A stretch of DNA of 64,000 nucleotides from Wenzhouxiangella sp. XN79A (GTDB lineage: Bacteria > Pseudomonadota > Gammaproteobacteria > Xanthomonadales > Wenzhouxiangellaceae), in contig NZ_JAAWWS010000145.1 of the NCBI RefSeq assembly GCF_012272825.1, positions 124,001 through 188,000 on the forward strand, read 5' to 3'. The translations under genes and the position numbers were made by a program. Of the stretch, positions 9,807 to 57,422 are shown piece after piece. Each line of letters opens with the position of its first letter. Within the stretch, counting starts at the first letter, position 1. The notes beneath the pieces are model-generated. The model was not told the origin of the DNA. It saw only the letters and a program-made list of their open reading frames with translations, and did not search any database.

Positions 9807-12800
9807 ATGCCCACCGAACTGTCGGTGACCAAGGACCTGTCGCTCGGGCTGCTCGTCCTGGCCGGACTGGCCTGGCTGGGCCTGCTGTTCGCCGTGGCGC
9901 TGTGGGGCGAGAAAGCCAAAGCGCGTCCGCGACGCGCCTGGCCGGTGGTCTATGCGCTGTCGCTGGCCGTCTACTGCACCGCCTGGACGTTCTACGGCGT
10001 GACCACCCAGGCGGTGCGCTCGGGCTGGGCAGTGCCGCCGACCTTCATCGGCACCATCGTGCTGTTCGTGCTGTTCACGCCGTTCCTGGTCCGGCTGGTC
10101 CGCTTGGCCAAGCAGCACAACACCACCAGCATCGCCGATTTCATCGCCAGCCGGTTCGGCAAGTCCTCGGCGCTGGCGGCCGTGGTGACGGCCGTGGCGG
10201 TGCTCGGGATGGTGCCGTACATCGCGCTGCAGCTCAAAGCCGTGGCGATGAGCTTCGGCGCGGTGGCCGGGCTGCCCGATCGGGCCGACGGCCCGGCCAC
10301 CTGGCAGGACCTGGCCTTCTACGTGGCGATCTTCATGGCGCTGTTCGCGGTGCTGTTCGGGACGCGGCGCGCGGCGGCCACCGAGCACAACCGCGGGCTG
10401 GTGCTGGCGATGGGCTTCGAGAGCCTGTTCAAGCTGGTCGCGATGCTGGCGCTCGGCGCCTTCGTGGTGTTCGGACTCTACGCCGGCCCCGCCGATCTCC
10501 AGGCGCGGACCCCGTCGCTGGAGTTCCGCGAACCCGCCTCGTTCGTCACCCTGGCGCTGCTCGGCGCGCTGGCCATGTTCACCCTGCCGCACCAGTTCCA
10601 CATCGGCGTGGTCGAGTGCCGCGACGAACGCCACCTGGCCACCGCGCGCTGGCTGTTCCCGCTGTTCCTGCTGCTGATCGCGCTGCCGGTGCTGCCGCTG
10701 GCCCGGGCCGGCGTGGCGCTGCTCGGCGAGGCCGGGGTCGCGCCCGACCTCTACGTGCTGATGCTGCCGCTGGCCCACGAGCAGTCCGGCCTGGCGCTGT
10801 TCGCGTTCCTCGGCGGCCTGAGCGCGGCGACCGGCATGGTGATCCTGGCCAGCCTGACCTTGTCGATCATGCTCGGCAATCACTGGATCACGCCGCTGCT
10901 GCTCCAGCGTCGCTGGTCGCCGGGCCGCGAGCTGGCTGTGCCGGTGCGGGTCCAGCGGCGCGTCGGCATCGTGCTGGTGCTGCTGCTGGCCTATGCCTAC
11001 GGCCGCCTGGCCGGCACCGCCGAGGCGCTGGCCGACATCGGCGCACTGTCGTTCTCGGGACTGGCCCAGCTGGCCCCGGCAGTCGTGCTGGCGGTCTACC
11101 GGCCGAACCTTCCGGCGCGCGCGATCCTGGCCGGGCTGCTGGCGGGGGTCGCGGTCTGGGCCTACGTGCTGCTGCTGCCGCTGGTCGTCGCGTTCGATGG
11201 GCGGGTCGCGCTGCCGGTCTGGCTCAGTCCCGACGGACTGTTCGGCCTCGGCGGCATCGACGCGCTGCCGCGTGCGGTGGCCGCCAGCCTGCTGGCCAAC
11301 GGCCTGGCGATCGTGCTGACCGCGCTGGGCAGCGCGCGCCGTGGCGGCGTGCCGAGCGGCGATCCGGAAGGCAGTCCGCTGCCCGATGCGGTGCTGCACC
11401 GACTGGCCGAGCGCTTCCTGCCGCCGGACCGTCGCTCGGCGGTGCTCGGTTCGTCCGATGCCCTCGAGCGTGAACGTGCCCTGGAGCACGAGCTGGCCGC
11501 CGTGGTCGGAGCCGCGTCGGCGCGGCTGCTGCTCGATGCCGCGCGCCGGCGCGCACCGGCCCCGCTGGACACCGTGGCCGAGCTGGTCGGCCAGGCGGCC
11601 GAGCAGGCGCAGTTCAGCCAGGCGGTGCTGTCCGGCGCGCTGGAGAACATGAGCCAGGGCGTCTGCGTGGTCGATGCCGAACTCAGGCTGGTGGCCTGGA
11701 ATCGGCCCTATCTCGACCTGTTCGATTACCCGCCGTCGCTGATCCGGGTCGGCCGACCGGTCGCCGACCTGCTTCGCCACAACGCCGTCCGGGGGCTGGT
11801 CGAGGCCGCCGATGTCGAGGCCGCCGTCCAGCGCCGGCTCGACCACAAGCGGGCCGGTTCACCGCATCGCATCGAGCGAAGCTGGCCGGACGGCCGGATC
11901 ATCGAGATCCGCGGCAACCCGATGCCGGGCGGCGGTTTCGTTGCCACGTTCAGCGACGTCACCGCGTTTCGCCGCGCCGAACAGGAACTCAAGCGCAGCA
12001 ACGAGACGCTGGAACAGCGCGTGGCGGCGCGCACCGTCGAGCTCGAGCAGGCCAAGATCGAGGCCGAGCGGGCCAGCGCGGCCAAGAGCCGGTTCCTGGC
12101 CGCGGTCAGCCACGATCTGGTCCAGCCGCTGAACGCGGCCCAGCTGATGACCCACTCGCTGGCCGCGCGGATCGAAACGCCTGCCGCGCAGCGCTCGCTG
12201 AAGCAGATCAGCGGCGCGCTCGGCGCGACCGAGGACCTGCTCGAGGCGCTGCTCGACATCTCGCGTCTCGACGCCGGCGGGCTGGAGCCGCGGGTGACCC
12301 GGTTCGCGCTCGACGAGTTGTTCGAGCAGCTGTCCGGCGAGTTCGCGATGCTGGCCGAGGCGCGCGGGCTTCAACTGCGCTGGCGACGCAGCGGCGCGTG
12401 GGTCGAGACCGATCCGCAGCTGCTGCGCCGGATCCTGCAGAACTTCCTGTCCAACGCCGTGCGCTATACCCGGAAGGGCGGCATCCTGCTGGCCGCCCGG
12501 CGGCGTGGCCACCGCGTGCTGGCCGGCGTCTGGGATACCGGGCCCGGCATCCCGGACGCCGCTCGCTCGGTGGTGTTCGAGGAGTTCCGCCGGCTCGATC
12601 CGGAAGACGCTGCGCCCGGCCTGGGCCTGGGGCTGGCGATCGCCGAGCGGATGGCCCGGCTGCTGGACCACCGTCTGCTGCTCGACTCCCGCGAACGGCA
12701 TGGAACGCTGTTCGGCGTCGAGCTGCCGGTGGTCGAGGTGGACGCGAGCCGGTCGGCCGACGGCATCCAGGGCGTTGCGCGGACCGCAACGACGGACGAC

Positions 12801-36508: not shown

Positions 36509-36962
36509 GGTGTCTCCTCTCTTTTCTTGTGGAACGGGATGGGCTCCCATGGATCGATGTGCCGATCGCCCCATCCCGGCCGTCTACCCGTGACAGCGTT
36601 TGCAGTATAGGCGGCCGGGCGCCGGGATTCAAACGGGTGTTTGAGGGTCAGGGGAAAAGGGGCGAGGGGCGAGTCGGGTGACTGGGGTCGGCGGGGGTCG
36701 GCGGGGGAGGGGGGCGGTTTCAGGGTTGAGGTTTTCAGTTGTCAGTTGTCAGTTGTCAGTTCTCAGTTCTCAGTTCTCAGTTGTCAGTTGTCAGTTGTCA
36801 GTTCTCAGTTCTCGGTTTCCAGTTCTCGGTTGTTCATTGCGGTCTTTGCCGCTTTGCGTTTTTTTCGTCCATCCTCTGCGGATCGAAGCCGCGGAGCAGC
36901 GGCGCCCGGGGAGCCGTCAGGACGCGCACGATGCTTGTCCCTGTCCCCTCTTGCCTGGCCCC
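36509..36962. other. 454-bp non-coding spacer with 7-bp-periodic array
   Basis: No gene is supported. It holds a G-rich stretch (36645-36720), the heptad array at 36736-36833 and a segment GCGGTCTTTGCCGCTTTGCG. Reading frames through the array exist only because a 7-bp repeat passes through all frames. Confidence 0.6.
36736..36833. repeat. Heptanucleotide tandem array 1 (CAGTTNT, 14 units)
   Basis: Fourteen contiguous 7-bp units in strict register. There are three CAGTTGT, three CAGTTCT, three CAGTTGT and two CAGTTCT, then CGGTTTC, CAGTTCT and CGGTTGT. The blocks of three identical units suggest duplication of multi-unit blocks. A related array lies at 56124-56235, in which ACAACTG, the complement of CAGTTGT, appears. 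Confidence 0.9.
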
Positions 36963-53177: not shown

Positions 53178-55835
53178 ATGAAAGACATTCGTAATCCACT
53201 TGCTGCGGCAATCCACTACGCGCTCGGCGCGGGCGTGGTTGCCGGCCTGGCAGTGACGGCCGCCCCGGCTTTCGCCCAGGACGAAGAAGCAGCAGACCTC
53301 GATCGCGTTGAGGTGACGGGTTCGCGCATCAAGCGCACCGACATCGAAGGCGCGCTGCCGGTCACGGTCATCGACCGCGAGCAGATCGAGTTCTCGGGCA
53401 AGACCTCGGTCGCCGACCTGCTTCGTGACACCCCGTTCAACAGCGCCGGTTCGTTCCGTCCGCAGTCCGGCTCGTCCGCTCAGTCGTTCGCCGGCGTTTC
53501 GCTGCGTGCCCTGGGCTCGGGTCGTACGCTGGTCCTGATCGACGGCAAGCGCGCACCGGTCGCGCCGAACGTCGGCGCAGGCCAGGACCTGAACTCCATC
53601 CCGCTGGCCGCCGTCGAGCGCATCGAAATCCTGTCCGACGGTGCATCGGCCATCTACGGTTCCGACGCCATCGGTGGTGTGATCAACATCATCACCCGCA
53701 AGGACTTCACCGGCGTCGAGCTGACCTGGGGCACTTCGGATCCGAAGCGTCCGGGCGGTGACCGCGAAGAAGCCTCGGCCATCTTCGGCGTGTCCGGCGA
53801 CCGCGGCCAGATCATGGTCGGTGTCTCCTACGACGAACGCGACATCGTGTTCGCTCGCGACAGGCCCTGGTCGCAGGGCGGCGCGTCGATCTTCTCGAAC
53901 AACTTCCTGACCTCGGGCTTCAGCTTCCTCGGCGGCCAGGGACCGAACGGCGGTCCGGGCAACGTTGCCGGCTGTAACGGTCCGGGCTTCGTGCTCGACG
54001 GTGGCTTCTGCTTCTACGACTTCACGCTGCAGTCCGCCGACGAAGCCGCGACCCGCAACGAGTCGCTGTTCACCCGTTCGCGCTACGACATCAACGCCGA
54101 CTGGAGCGTGTTCATGAACGCTCAGGTCAACCGCGTGAAGACCTTCGGCCGTTATGCGCCGGTGCCGTCCTCGCCGTGGCTGGTCGGTGGCTTCGGTGCC
54201 ATCGTTCTCGAGCCGGGCACGCCGAACCATCCGGCCACCCCGCCGAGCGCTGGCGGTCTGAACCCGTTCTTCGACACCTACCAGGGTGTGGCCGACGACA
54301 TCGTCCTGCTGACCCACCGCTTCGCGGCCAACGGTCCGCGCGACACGTCGACCGACGCACAGCTGTATGACGTCGACCTGGGTGCCCAGGGCCGTATCGG
54401 CAACTTCGACGTCGAGTTCGGCATGCGCCGCACCGAGTCGCAGTACACCGAAATCGGCCGGAACTACATCGTGTCCGCGCTGGCGCAGCCGCAGATCACG
54501 AACGGTAACTACAACATCTACGACCCGTTCAACGTTCCGCAGGACATTCTGCAGTCGTTCACCTCGACCATCGGTCGTGACGCGAACTACCTGGCCAAGG
54601 AGTTCTACGCGAACGCCGCCACCGACCTGTTCGACGTGCCGGCCGGCACGGTCGGCCTCGCGTTCGGTGCCGAGTATCGCGAAGAAGACTACCGCGACAT
54701 CTACGACGACCTGCAGGCCAACGGCAACATCACCGGTTCGGCCGGTAACTCCGCCTCCGGCGGTCGTGACCTGACGGCGGTCTTCGCCGAGGTCCTGGTG
54801 CCGATCCTGGACAACCTGGAGCTGTCCGGTGCGCTGCGTTACGACGATTACAGCGACTTCGGCGATGCCACGTCCCCGAAACTGGCCCTGCGCTACCAGC
54901 CGCTGGACATCCTGACGCTGCGCGCGTCGTGGGGTGAGGGCTTCCGTGCCCCGACCCTGGACATCCTGTCGGCCCGTCCGTCGTTCTCCGCTGATTCGGT
55001 CATCGACGATCCGACCTGTGTGGCCTTCGGCCAGCAGCCGGGTTGCGAAACCCAGATCACCGCGTTCGTCATCTCGAACCCGAATCTGGACGCCGAAGAC
55101 TCCGAGCAGTTCAACATCGGTGCGGCCTTCGAGCCGTTCGACTGGCTGTCCGGTTCCGTGGACTGGTGGAAGATCGAGGTCACCAACCGCGTTGCGGCCA
55201 TCGGTGCCCAGCAGATCATCAACTGCCTGAACGGCACGTCGCAGAACTGCCCGCCGGGCCTGTCCAACCTGGATCCGAGCCTGTCGCCGCCGAACGAAAC
55301 CGTCGGCCAGGGCCTGGGTGTCGCGCGTAACCCGGACACCGGCCAGATCGTCTACCTGCAGCGCGGTTTCGCGTCGCTGGGTACGATCGACACCGAAGGT
55401 TTCGACGTGAACCTGCGTGGTAACTGGAACTTCGGCGAGCTGGGCAGCCTGCGCGTCGATGCTCAGGGTACCTACACGGCCACGTTCGAAGTCGACAGCG
55501 GTGCCAACGTCGCCGGTGATGCCGGTCTGCCGCGCTGGCGTGCAGCCCTGAACACCGAGTACCGGATCGGTGACTTCGCGTTCGCCTGGGTCATGAACTA
55601 CATCGATGACCAGAACGACGCGCTGGATCCGAACCTGGACGGTCTGCCGAGCTGGACCACGCACGACCTCCAGGCCAACTGGTACACGCCGTGGAACGGT
55701 CAGATCACCGTTGGTGTCGACAACGTCGCCAACAAGGATCCGGTCCTGGATCCGGGTGAAGGCCGCGGCTTCAACTTCAGCCTGTACGACGGCTACGGCC
55801 GTATCCCGTACGTGCGGTACAAGCAGAGCTTCTAA
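53178..55835 (+). CDS. TonB-dependent outer-membrane receptor, probably highly expressed
   Basis: 885-residue receptor. A signal peptide (1-34, ending AAPAFAQ) is followed by TonB-box-like VEVTGSRIKR, a plug (about 50-175; LVLIDGKRAPV, VERIEILSDGASAIYGSDAIGGVINI) and a barrel ending VRYKQSF. No STN domain. The plug and VTGSRI form are typical of xanthomonad-type receptors for peptides or carbohydrates, but the ligand is unknown. Codon choice differs from neighbours: many GGT, CGT, GTT and TCC/GTC optimal codons, as in abundant proteins. It has its own promoter and a strong terminator. Confidence 0.94.
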   Translation: MKDIRNPLAAAIHYALGAGVVAGLAVTAAPAFAQDEEAADLDRVEVTGSRIKRTDIEGALPVTVIDREQIEFSGKTSVADLLRDTPFNSAGSFRPQSGSSAQSFAGVSLRALGSGRTLVLIDGKRAPVAPNVGAGQDLNSIPLAAVERIEILSDGASAIYGSDAIGGVINIITRKDFTGVELTWGTSDPKRPGGDREEASAIFGVSGDRGQIMVGVSYDERDIVFARDRPWSQGGASIFSNNFLTSGFSFLGGQGPNGGPGNVAGCNGPGFVLDGGFCFYDFTLQSADEAATRNESLFTRSRYDINADWSVFMNAQVNRVKTFGRYAPVPSSPWLVGGFGAIVLEPGTPNHPATPPSAGGLNPFFDTYQGVADDIVLLTHRFAANGPRDTSTDAQLYDVDLGAQGRIGNFDVEFGMRRTESQYTEIGRNYIVSALAQPQITNGNYNIYDPFNVPQDILQSFTSTIGRDANYLAKEFYANAATDLFDVPAGTVGLAFGAEYREEDYRDIYDDLQANGNITGSAGNSASGGRDLTAVFAEVLVPILDNLELSGALRYDDYSDFGDATSPKLALRYQPLDILTLRASWGEGFRAPTLDILSARPSFSADSVIDDPTCVAFGQQPGCETQITAFVISNPNLDAEDSEQFNIGAAFEPFDWLSGSVDWWKIEVTNRVAAIGAQQIINCLNGTSQNCPPGLSNLDPSLSPPNETVGQGLGVARNPDTGQIVYLQRGFASLGTIDTEGFDVNLRGNWNFGELGSLRVDAQGTYTATFEVDSGANVAGDAGLPRWRAALNTEYRIGDFAFAWVMNYIDDQNDALDPNLDGLPSWTTHDLQANWYTPWNGQITVGVDNVANKDPVLDPGEGRGFNFSLYDGYGRIPYVRYKQSF

Positions 55836-55876
55836 GCCCCGCTTGGCCGTTTGACACGGCTTGAAGCAGCACCATG

Positions 55877-55908
55877 AAACGGCCCGGCCTTCCGGGCCGT
55901 TTCTTTTT
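55877..55908 (+). terminator. Rho-independent terminator after TonB receptor
   Basis: AAACGGCCCGG, short loop, CCGGGCCGTTT, then CTTTTT: an 11-bp stem with T-run 42 bp after the receptor stop. Confidence 0.9.
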
Positions 55909-56020
55909 CTGGACAAGGGCGAGGGAAGAGGGGACAGGGGCGGGTGAAGTCCCGATCCCGAAACCGGCAACCGGAAAAGCGTTTCTCGCAGATCCTCAGC
56001 CCACTACGCTCGATCGATGG

Positions 56021-56085
56021 CCTGTTGGAGGCAGCGTGCAGGCCAAGGGCGGCCCGCCCGGTTCGCGCGGAATCCGCCCTCCCAC
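56021..56085. repeat. REP-like inverted pair, locus 2
   Basis: CCTGTTGGAGGCAGCGTGCA (56021-56040, continuing GGCCAAGGGC) is followed by an inverted unit TTCGCGCGGAATCCGCCCTC (from 56062). Both follow the pattern TGTTGGAGG(C/G)....GCGAA seen at loci 1 and 3. Confidence 0.65.
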
Positions 56086-56123
56086 AGTCGAACCCATCGC
56101 CGAGAAAAGCAGGAAAAGGGGAG

Positions 56124-56235
56124 CGGTGAACGGTGAACGGTGAACAGTGAACAGTGAACAGCAACCAACAACCAACAACCAACAACTGAAACCTGAAACC
56201 TGAAACCTGAAACCTGAAACCTTCAACCCGAAACC
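56124..56235. repeat. Heptanucleotide tandem array 2 (16 units, three sub-motifs)
   Basis: Sixteen contiguous 7-bp units in unbroken register: CGGTGAA x3, CAGTGAA x2, CAGCAAC, CAACAAC x3, TGAAACC x5, TTCAACC, CGAAACC. The motif changes twice but the 7-bp phase never slips, which suggests selection or copying by block rather than random drift. Confidence 0.9.
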
Positions 56236-56453
56236 TCTTTCGTTCACAGACAAACGCGGATGAAGGTCAACCCCTGCAGACCCGAGGGAGAAGAACCGCA
56301 CTCCATCTGCAGCCCTCGACCCTGGCCGCCGAACGCCGAGCACGGACGCCTGAAACGCCGCACCCGTGAACTAAAAAACCGAAAACTGGACCTCCCCTCG
56401 CCCCACCTTGCTATCCTCACCAACCGCCCGCTCTTGACGATGACACCGATTCC

Positions 56454-57422
56454 ATGCACGCCCCCGACGACGATTTTCGCCGCCGCAGCTGGAGCCGGTA
56501 CTGGGCCAGCGGCGCGCTGACGTCGCTGCCGGAGGATTTCCGTGCCAACTACGATGGGGAGATCCGATCGTTCTGGCATGGCCGCTGTGCAGACGTTCCC
56601 GATGGAGGGCGGGTGCTCGATGTGTGCACCGGTAATGGGGCGGTGGCGCTGCTGGTGGCCGAAGGCCTGGCGGCCATGGGGCAGACCGCGACGATCACGG
56701 CCGTCGATCTGGCCGACATCCAGCCGCAGCGGATCCGACAGCGCTTTCCCGCCCTGGCCAAGTACATCGACACGATTGGTTTCGTCGGCAATCAGCCGTT
56801 CGAGGCCGTTGCGCTGGATGATGCCAGCCAGGACCTGATCGTCAGCCAGTACGGCATCGAATACTGCGAGCCCGAGCCGGCGGCCCGGCAGTGCGCGCGG
56901 CTGCTGAAGCCCGGCGGGCGAATGGCGTTGGTGACCCACGCCACCGACAGCGCGATGCGGGCGACCATGCAGCAGGAGCTGGAGCAGTACGAAGTGCTGG
57001 CCGACAGCGGCCTGTTCCAGCGCGCTCGCGAATGGCGGTCCGGCTCTCTGGGTGCCGAAGGCTTCGTCCGGGCCCTGGCCCGGATCGACGCCGTGATTCG
57101 TGGCCGTCCGGACGCTTCGGGCTCGCCCCTGTTCGGCTACGTTCTGGGCCTGACCGGCCAGGTCGCTCGCTGGCAGGCTGCCCGGCTCCAGGCCCAGCGC
57201 GCTGCAGTCATCGACGCCGTAGTGCAGCTCGAGGACGGCCGCTCCCGGCTCGATCAGATGCTCGGCGTGCACCGCCTGCTCGAATCACCGGAGCGCTTTG
57301 CCGGACACTTCGAGCAGGCCGGCCTGGCGCTCGACGAACACGGCCCGCTGACCTATCGCGGTACCCACGCCGTCGGGCATCGGCTGCTGTTCTCGAAGCC
57401 CGACGACCCCGGTCGCGATTGA
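56454..57422 (+). CDS. Class I SAM-dependent methyltransferase
   Basis: 322-residue Rossmann-fold methyltransferase. Motif I is VLDVCTGNGAVALLVAEG (residues 54-71), motif II ITAVDLADI and motif III region SQYGIEYCEP, then LLKPGGRMALVTH. The C-terminal 130 residues are helical and unlike common families. The substrate is not recognisable. It stands alone between two repeat regions. No link to the borosin operon is implied: this is a different methyltransferase fold. Confidence 0.83.
   Translation: MHAPDDDFRRRSWSRYWASGALTSLPEDFRANYDGEIRSFWHGRCADVPDGGRVLDVCTGNGAVALLVAEGLAAMGQTATITAVDLADIQPQRIRQRFPALAKYIDTIGFVGNQPFEAVALDDASQDLIVSQYGIEYCEPEPAARQCARLLKPGGRMALVTHATDSAMRATMQQELEQYEVLADSGLFQRAREWRSGSLGAEGFVRALARIDAVIRGRPDASGSPLFGYVLGLTGQVARWQAARLQAQRAAVIDAVVQLEDGRSRLDQMLGVHRLLESPERFAGHFEQAGLALDEHGPLTYRGTHAVGHRLLFSKPDDPGRD

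Follow-up and report, generated by a model that had tools for sequence, protein, structure and literature searches.

Heptanucleotide Repeats in Bacteria

The short tandemly repeated repetitive sequences of cyanobacteria are heptanucleotide arrays. More generally, among long simple repeats heptanucleotides are cited as the class with the highest abundance in a majority of surveyed genomes, with polymerase slippage suggested as their source (Mrazek, 2007, cited in PMC4679880 and PMC4692102), and these two reports describe the repeats of many bacteria as mostly intergenic and again propose slippage. In the account of Rehm et al. (2015; PMC4692102), the GGGNATC repeats of Xanthomonas and Nostoc are mostly intergenic, lie between aligned or convergent genes and rarely between divergent ones, vary in length and sequence between species, and for the most part keep their neighbouring genes from one Xanthomonas species to a second. 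TAACTGA repeats have been described in marine Beggiatoaceae, cyanobacteria and Bacteroidetes, in a report which adds that heptamers are mixed in Microcystis and that two Cyanothece strains differ by indels that are multiples of 7 nt (MacGregor, 2015; PMC4679880).

The array considered here lies at positions 56124-56235 of the window, that is, the whole 64,000-nucleotide stretch of the genome of Wenzhouxiangella sp. XN79A that was analysed. It is an intergenic heptanucleotide simple-sequence repeat, a kind for which Xanthomonas, cyanobacteria and Beggiatoaceae provide earlier examples, and the known kind takes here a rich and varied form, with many words sharing one alignment and often swapping their variable letters. 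Many words on one beat, together with congener spacers that hold no tract, bear on the frequency of the unit of seven in long bacterial simple repeats and make it possible to ask whether the copying machinery, and not the sequence, sets the step, and the register and triplet-swap pattern offer a concrete target for testing this; if slippage explains everything, the arrays are a fast-evolving typing marker and little more.

Compared with the published description of the GGGNATC repeats (PMC4692102), the arrays of this genome are likewise made of 7-bp tandem units at many loci, mostly intergenic, rare between divergent genes and variable in length and sequence from species to species, and the AATCCCG units of L061 (5507-5562), which read GGGATTC on the other strand, fall within the (GGGANTN)n class of the same report. 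Unlike those repeats, the window array is A+C-rich, joins several words and has no GGG tract on either strand, one imperfect CCCG unit excepted, although GGG is present in several arrays elsewhere in the genome; moreover, whereas most of the described repeats keep the same spacer in two Xanthomonas species, six of eight tested congener spacers here are without a tract. With the TAACTGA repeats of PMC4679880, the unit length is shared, and TAACTGA becomes ACTGATA in the present register, a word found as units in L077. In the main genome of that report, however, one word is dominant and stands just upstream of start codons, whereas here many words occur at varied distances; TAACTGA is not among the units of the window array, whose core ends 231 bp, and not a few bases, before the start of the next gene.

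Organization of the Window Array

The two genes that flank the array are both on the + strand, and the elements of the spacer, together with the other heptad array of the window, are the following.

36731..36833, - strand: the first of the two heptad arrays, made of ACTGACA/ACTGAGA units, same register class (TRF, units)
53178..55835, + strand: TonB-dependent receptor gene, ending 288 bp before the array (Pfam PF00593, PF07715)
55922..55946, + strand: short degenerate AGGGNNN heptad tract, AGGGAAG AGGGGAC AGGGGCG (sequence)
56019..56087, + strand: REP-like inverted-repeat element, GGCCTGTTGGAGGC ... CCCTCCCACAG (sequence, similarity)
56124..56161, + strand: block 1, CGGTGAA x3, CAGTGAA x2, CAG (sequence, TRF 56126-56161, units)
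56162..56186, + strand: block 2, CAACCAA x3.6 (TRF, units)
56185..56191, + strand: junction unit ACTGAAA, overlapping the ACAACTG of the preliminary description (sequence, register reading)
56186..56236, + strand: block 3, CTGAAAC (TGAAACC) x5, then imperfect TTCAACC, CGAAACC (TRF, 86% matches)
56454..57422, + strand: methyltransferase gene, starting 231 bp past the array core, which ends at 56222 (Pfam PF13649)

The 112 bp at 56124-56235 consist of 16 heptads in three blocks, placed head to tail well beyond chance as in other bacterial heptanucleotide repeats: 91/105 positions (0.87) are identical to the base 7 further on, whereas offsets 5, 6, 8, 9 and 10 give fractions of 0.18-0.36, and the segment scores 65 when none of 40 first-order Markov copies of the window exceeds 12. 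TRF divides the segment into three period-7 arrays at 56126-56161, 56162-56186 and 56186-56236. The sixteen units and three sub-motifs given in the preliminary description are thus confirmed, the latter as GTGAAC[G/A], CAACCAA and TGAAACC. Its further statement, that the array passes through the three motifs without one base of slippage, is not confirmed as a whole and is half right: with the junction unit read as ACTGAAA, blocks 2 and 3 share one register (ACCAACA, the form of CAACCAA in the xCyGnnn register, then ACTGAAA and CCTGAAA). Continuity between blocks 1 and 2 cannot be shown, because block 1 belongs to the reverse-complement class (on the - strand it is an ACCGTTC/ACTGTTC word, ACYGTTC) and, in the xCyGnnn register, its run is displaced by 4 bases relative to block 2. 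At both block junctions, the in-phase rotation gives 3/7 identity, against 4/7 for another rotation.

A link to the other array of the window had been seen in ACAACTG, which is indeed the reverse complement of CAGTTGT, a unit at 36731-36833, and is present in the array at 56124-56235 as a single copy where block 2 meets block 3. No cyclic word in at least two copies is common to the two arrays of the window, and one ACTGAAA unit is found in each of them.

Pairing between the halves of the array could produce a ladder of 3-bp CAG/CUG stems. A structured RNA was considered and rejected, as no Rfam match was obtained for 55800-56500 and the RNA folding of either strand of the array is no better than that of shuffles (z -0.42, -0.97).

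Heptad Arrays Across the Genome

In 1,107,192 of the 3,750,446 bases (1.107 of 3.75 Mb), examined as stretches chosen partly for having hits, 33 period-7 arrays were found, dispersed over many loci and over-represented in non-coding DNA. None of the 33 lies inside a gene as predicted by a codon-usage finder of our own, whose performance is poor where G+C is low, and a protein-coding repeat is therefore ruled out. Among the 31 arrays with both neighbours known, 20 lie between co-directional genes, 10 between convergent genes and 1 between divergent genes; divergent spacers make up 26% of the spacer length (p = 0.001). A DNA search of the genome returned 44 matches across many contigs, and TGAAACCTGAAACC has 43 overlapping matches there while its reversed control has 0. 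Counted on both strands and with overlapping words included, 4-mers recurring at least four times form 730 runs at period 7 in the 1.107 Mb, the same count being 10, 60, 2, 26, 6 and 4 at periods 5, 6, 8, 9, 10 and 11. Contig C28, taken whole (279 kb), has 10 tandem segments with periods from 2 to 30, of which 3 are of period 7, and therefore the contrast is strongest in the stretches picked for hits.

The arrays are dense in contig C50, where 100 kb contain 12 of them, a number reached elsewhere over 819 kb (Fisher p = 2e-6), a comparison biased by choice since C50 was picked for its many hits; per 10 kb of predicted non-coding DNA the figures are 2.7 for C50 and 0.6-1.8 otherwise. The count for C40 is 3 or 2 depending on the procedure, periods 14-28 being merged.

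In the 20 co-directional spacers, A+C-richness falls on the sense strand 14 times. This bias of 14 to 6 is not significant (p = 0.12), and a Rho site or another strand-specific role in the transcript was set aside on that ground. On the A+C-rich strand, the A-content climbs from 5' to 3' (22 arrays, mean rho 0.36, p = 0.003, related arrays not being independent), a rise that slippage alone does not explain.

Shared Words and a Common Register

In 29 arrays, 25 distinct cyclic words occur in at least two tandem copies, where about 67 are expected for random words of the same composition; AAAACTG recurs in 10 of the 29, AAACCTG and AACCCTG in 9 each, while the maximum in 1000 simulations was 4. 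The earlier idea of one repeat family is upheld to this extent, that cyclic words are common to the arrays far beyond chance and that words near ACTGAAA keep their register within runs. The register, xCyGnnn, fits ACTGAAA, CCTGAAA, CCTGAAC, CCCGAAC, ACTGCTC, ACTGTTC, ACCGAGA and others. Among 82 distinct words near ACTGAAA from 49 loci, mismatches amount to 9% at position 2, 22% at position 4 and 39-50% elsewhere; since all positions had the same weight when loci were selected for their resemblance to ACTGAAA, the inequality is informative, but the words recur between loci and are not independent. Loci near ACTGAAA with at least four units number 77, a few of them by chance and one array counted on both strands, against 2 in a mononucleotide shuffle of 12 stretches. 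Five ACTG cores at a spacing of 7 have 77 overlapping matches in the genome, and their reversed control has 0.

Adjacent words differ by one base in 60 of 147 distinct steps, by two in 39, by three in 39 and by more in 9, and 15 of the 48 steps that change at least three bases change exactly positions 5-7. At block edges, 34 steps comprise 17 transitions and 17 transversions, a spectrum that does not lend itself to interpretation because the control alignment is of very different composition.

As for phase, 53 block-to-block junctions were compared. Identity in phase is at least 6/7 in 32 of them, which count as in phase by definition; in the remaining 21, which join words that differ clearly, no other rotation beats the in-phase one at 11, with 3.6 expected (p = 0.0002), and the beat therefore tends to hold through word changes. 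Neighbouring runs behave differently: where runs of at least three units, some of them possibly due to chance at three, are followed by another within 20 bp, 12 of 15 junctions are off register and 3 keep it, no better than random, and real phase shifts are present in L071 (9307-9537). The perfect phase of the preliminary description is thus too strong a claim, and an absolute period-keeping mechanism is not supported in view of the broken phase at the 12 run junctions, an outcome that the description had itself named as refuting. Nothing points to the protein that it imagined reading every seven bases, whereas template switching, its other suggestion, may act at short anchors and enters the origin preferred below; a common order of sub-motifs across arrays fails to emerge (12 concordant against 7 discordant word pairs, p = 0.16). 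By eye, the strand class switches in one direction in three arrays, L115 (12293-12476), L067 (9319-9606) and the window (56124-56222), with CAGTGAR- or TGAGCGG-type words on the left and CTGAAA-type words on the right.

Relatives and Orthologous Spacers

Among 299 genomes searched within the order, 25 contain TGAAACCx3, all but two of these 25 belonging to the same family (23), and it is missing from each of five congeners. In the samples read, the main words are CAACCAA in the congener G168, CTGAAAC in the family members G009 and G099, and AGGGNNN in G058. Two of the eight orthologous congener spacers hold a period-7 tract of other words and six hold no array. In G058 the window spacer has no heptad array, with a receptor gene 87% identical over 2.9 kb; the L069 spacer is without an array in G058, G104 and G065 and has one of other words in G168; and the L071 array is absent in G058 and G168, with a short GCCGACT tract (26 bp) in G104. 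The rnhB neighbourhoods of four congeners, left out of this count because the other neighbour was not found, contain no period-7 segment.

AGGGNNNx4AGGG matches 31 of 151 genomes of the order. GGGANNN, the reversed pattern, into which the class published for Xanthomonas also falls, matches 34 of 151 by our own count, although it is an unclean control, since words such as AGGGACT and AGGGGAC fit both patterns. Degenerate AGGGNNN heptads with many triads (CCC, TAT, CTC, CAC and others) are seen in G025, G038 and G052, where the reversed controls count 0, 0 and 2. That AGGGNNN is always degenerate was rejected, 6 of 14 arrays in the fetched loci showing at least two triads, as was ACTG as a phylum-wide core, which matches 12 of 397 other genomes against 15 for the reversed control (own count); the ACTG excess is confined to some genomes of one genus (g195). 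Loops of seven nucleotides escape mismatch repair. The loss of mutS as a cause of the arrays is ruled out, a full-length mutS1 match being present in 6 of 6 members of the genus.

Origin of the Arrays

The arrays probably result from slipped-strand expansion at a 7-bp step in tolerant spacers, with words that are mutated and exchanged at short anchors. Tracts would lengthen and shorten by strand slippage in whole 7-bp steps, mostly in spacers that do not separate divergent genes; new words would arise from single-base changes and from swaps of the variable triplet, the swaps through slippage or template switching at short anchors such as ACTG or CTGA, and would then be amplified locally into blocks of different words on one beat. 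Since the anchors recur every 7 bp, such exchanges would tend to keep the register, though not always, and tracts would be born and lost between species of one genus. Slippage and template switching would thus be the processes behind the period, the location, the shared vocabulary, the register and the turnover observed, in arrays that would have no function. Whole-unit slippage may well explain the period, the local blocks and the turnover. Slippage plus drift, on the other hand, predicts mostly one-substitution neighbours, yet 87 of the 147 steps change at least two bases, and independent births are disfavoured because the vocabulary is far too small. The two- and three-base steps, many of them confined to the triplet, and the common vocabulary suggest a further process, the exchange of words between tracts at short anchors. 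The step size of seven itself is explained by no result presented here.

The same triplet swaps lend themselves to a stronger reading, in which heptads locked in register (xCyGnnn here, AGGGnnn in some other genomes of the order) would have a fixed anchor and their last three bases would be exchanged as a cassette between tracts, by active or recombination-driven word swapping at a 7-base step, and not by plain microsatellite drift. We regard this as distinctly unlikely. No description of a fixed core with swapped triplets was found among the titles and abstract openings returned by literature searches, the nearest case being (GGGANTN)n (PMC4692102). Unequal conservation could also reflect selection by a DNA- or RNA-binding protein that recognises fixed letters, either C and G two apart or AGGG, every seven bases while the rest drifts. 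The low mismatch of C at position 2 and G at position 4, the spaced ACTG cores and the predominance of the A+C-rich strand as sense would suit such a protein, but the last of these biases is not significant, arrays are missing in most orthologous congener spacers, words differ between species, the position of the arrays relative to genes varies and the ACTG core is not favoured across the phylum, so that selection of this sort appears unlikely.

What is kept could instead be a structure, formed by quadruplexes of the G-rich strand, as proposed for the GGGNATC repeats, or by the pairing of inverted halves. AGGGNNN and AACCC words are indeed one-strand G-tract repeats, the former matching in 31 of 151 genomes of the order, and the window array can fold into the ladder of short stems mentioned above; the near absence of GGG from its blocks, the lack of any RNA folding excess and the frequent words without a G tract (AAAACTG, CAACCAA) nevertheless make a conserved structure quite improbable. 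A dedicated heptad writer, for instance a telomerase-like enzyme or a terminal polymerase, has to be considered as well, which would add CAGTnnn words to broken 3' ends, so that arrays with inverted halves (CAGTGAR on the left, ACTGAAA on the right) would be joined break ends. This would fit a fixed core with triplet swaps, the small common vocabulary and the identical strand-class order seen by eye in the window, L065/L115 and L067. Three arrays are, however, a small sample, 60 of the 147 steps are plain single substitutions, and a reverse transcriptase, which such a writer would require in every heptad-rich genome, is not seen in all of them: RVT_1 has one match in XN79A and none in the heptad-rich G009, G168 (85% complete) and G124. 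A writer of reverse-transcriptase type is accordingly not supported, and a dedicated writer in general seems highly improbable. Neither a dedicated protein nor a reverse transcriptase is indicated behind the arrays, and slippage with word exchange is retained as the preferred origin.

Elements Associated With the Arrays

The AGGGNNN tract at 55922-55946, upstream of the window array, belongs to a heptad class different from that of the array. In L069, an AGGGNNN-type tract stands, by eye, beside the array in both XN79A and G058 and is apparently an older layer. The REP-like element of the window spacer is similar to the array flanks in L076 and L166, the similarity spanning about 56007-56102, and in these two loci it recurs about every 95 bp; a typed REP pattern searched across the window gave 0 matches. 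In the form CCTGTTGGAGGC ... CCTCCAACAGG, the inverted repeat adjoins heptad arrays in the window (56019-56087), in L076 (1-270) and on the right flank of L166 (8192), and in the orthologous spacer of G058 CTGTGGGAGTGAGC-type elements stand in place of it. A CCGCAGATGAACGC-type element, possibly another dispersed repeat, is common to XN79A and G058 in the first part of the L071 spacer (L199, L200).

The C50 loci L061-L064 and L172 form a surface-polysaccharide locus with islands of low G+C, whose 100 kb account for 12 of the 33 arrays; the 10 proteins scanned there include a Wzz-type kinase, an O-antigen ligase, an ATP sulfurylase/APS kinase, a sulfotransferase and glycosyltransferases. Immediately downstream of mutS1 (G000:C36 32244-34784), L171 carries an array of about 19 ACTGAGA units (9822-9954, G000:C36 34822-34954).
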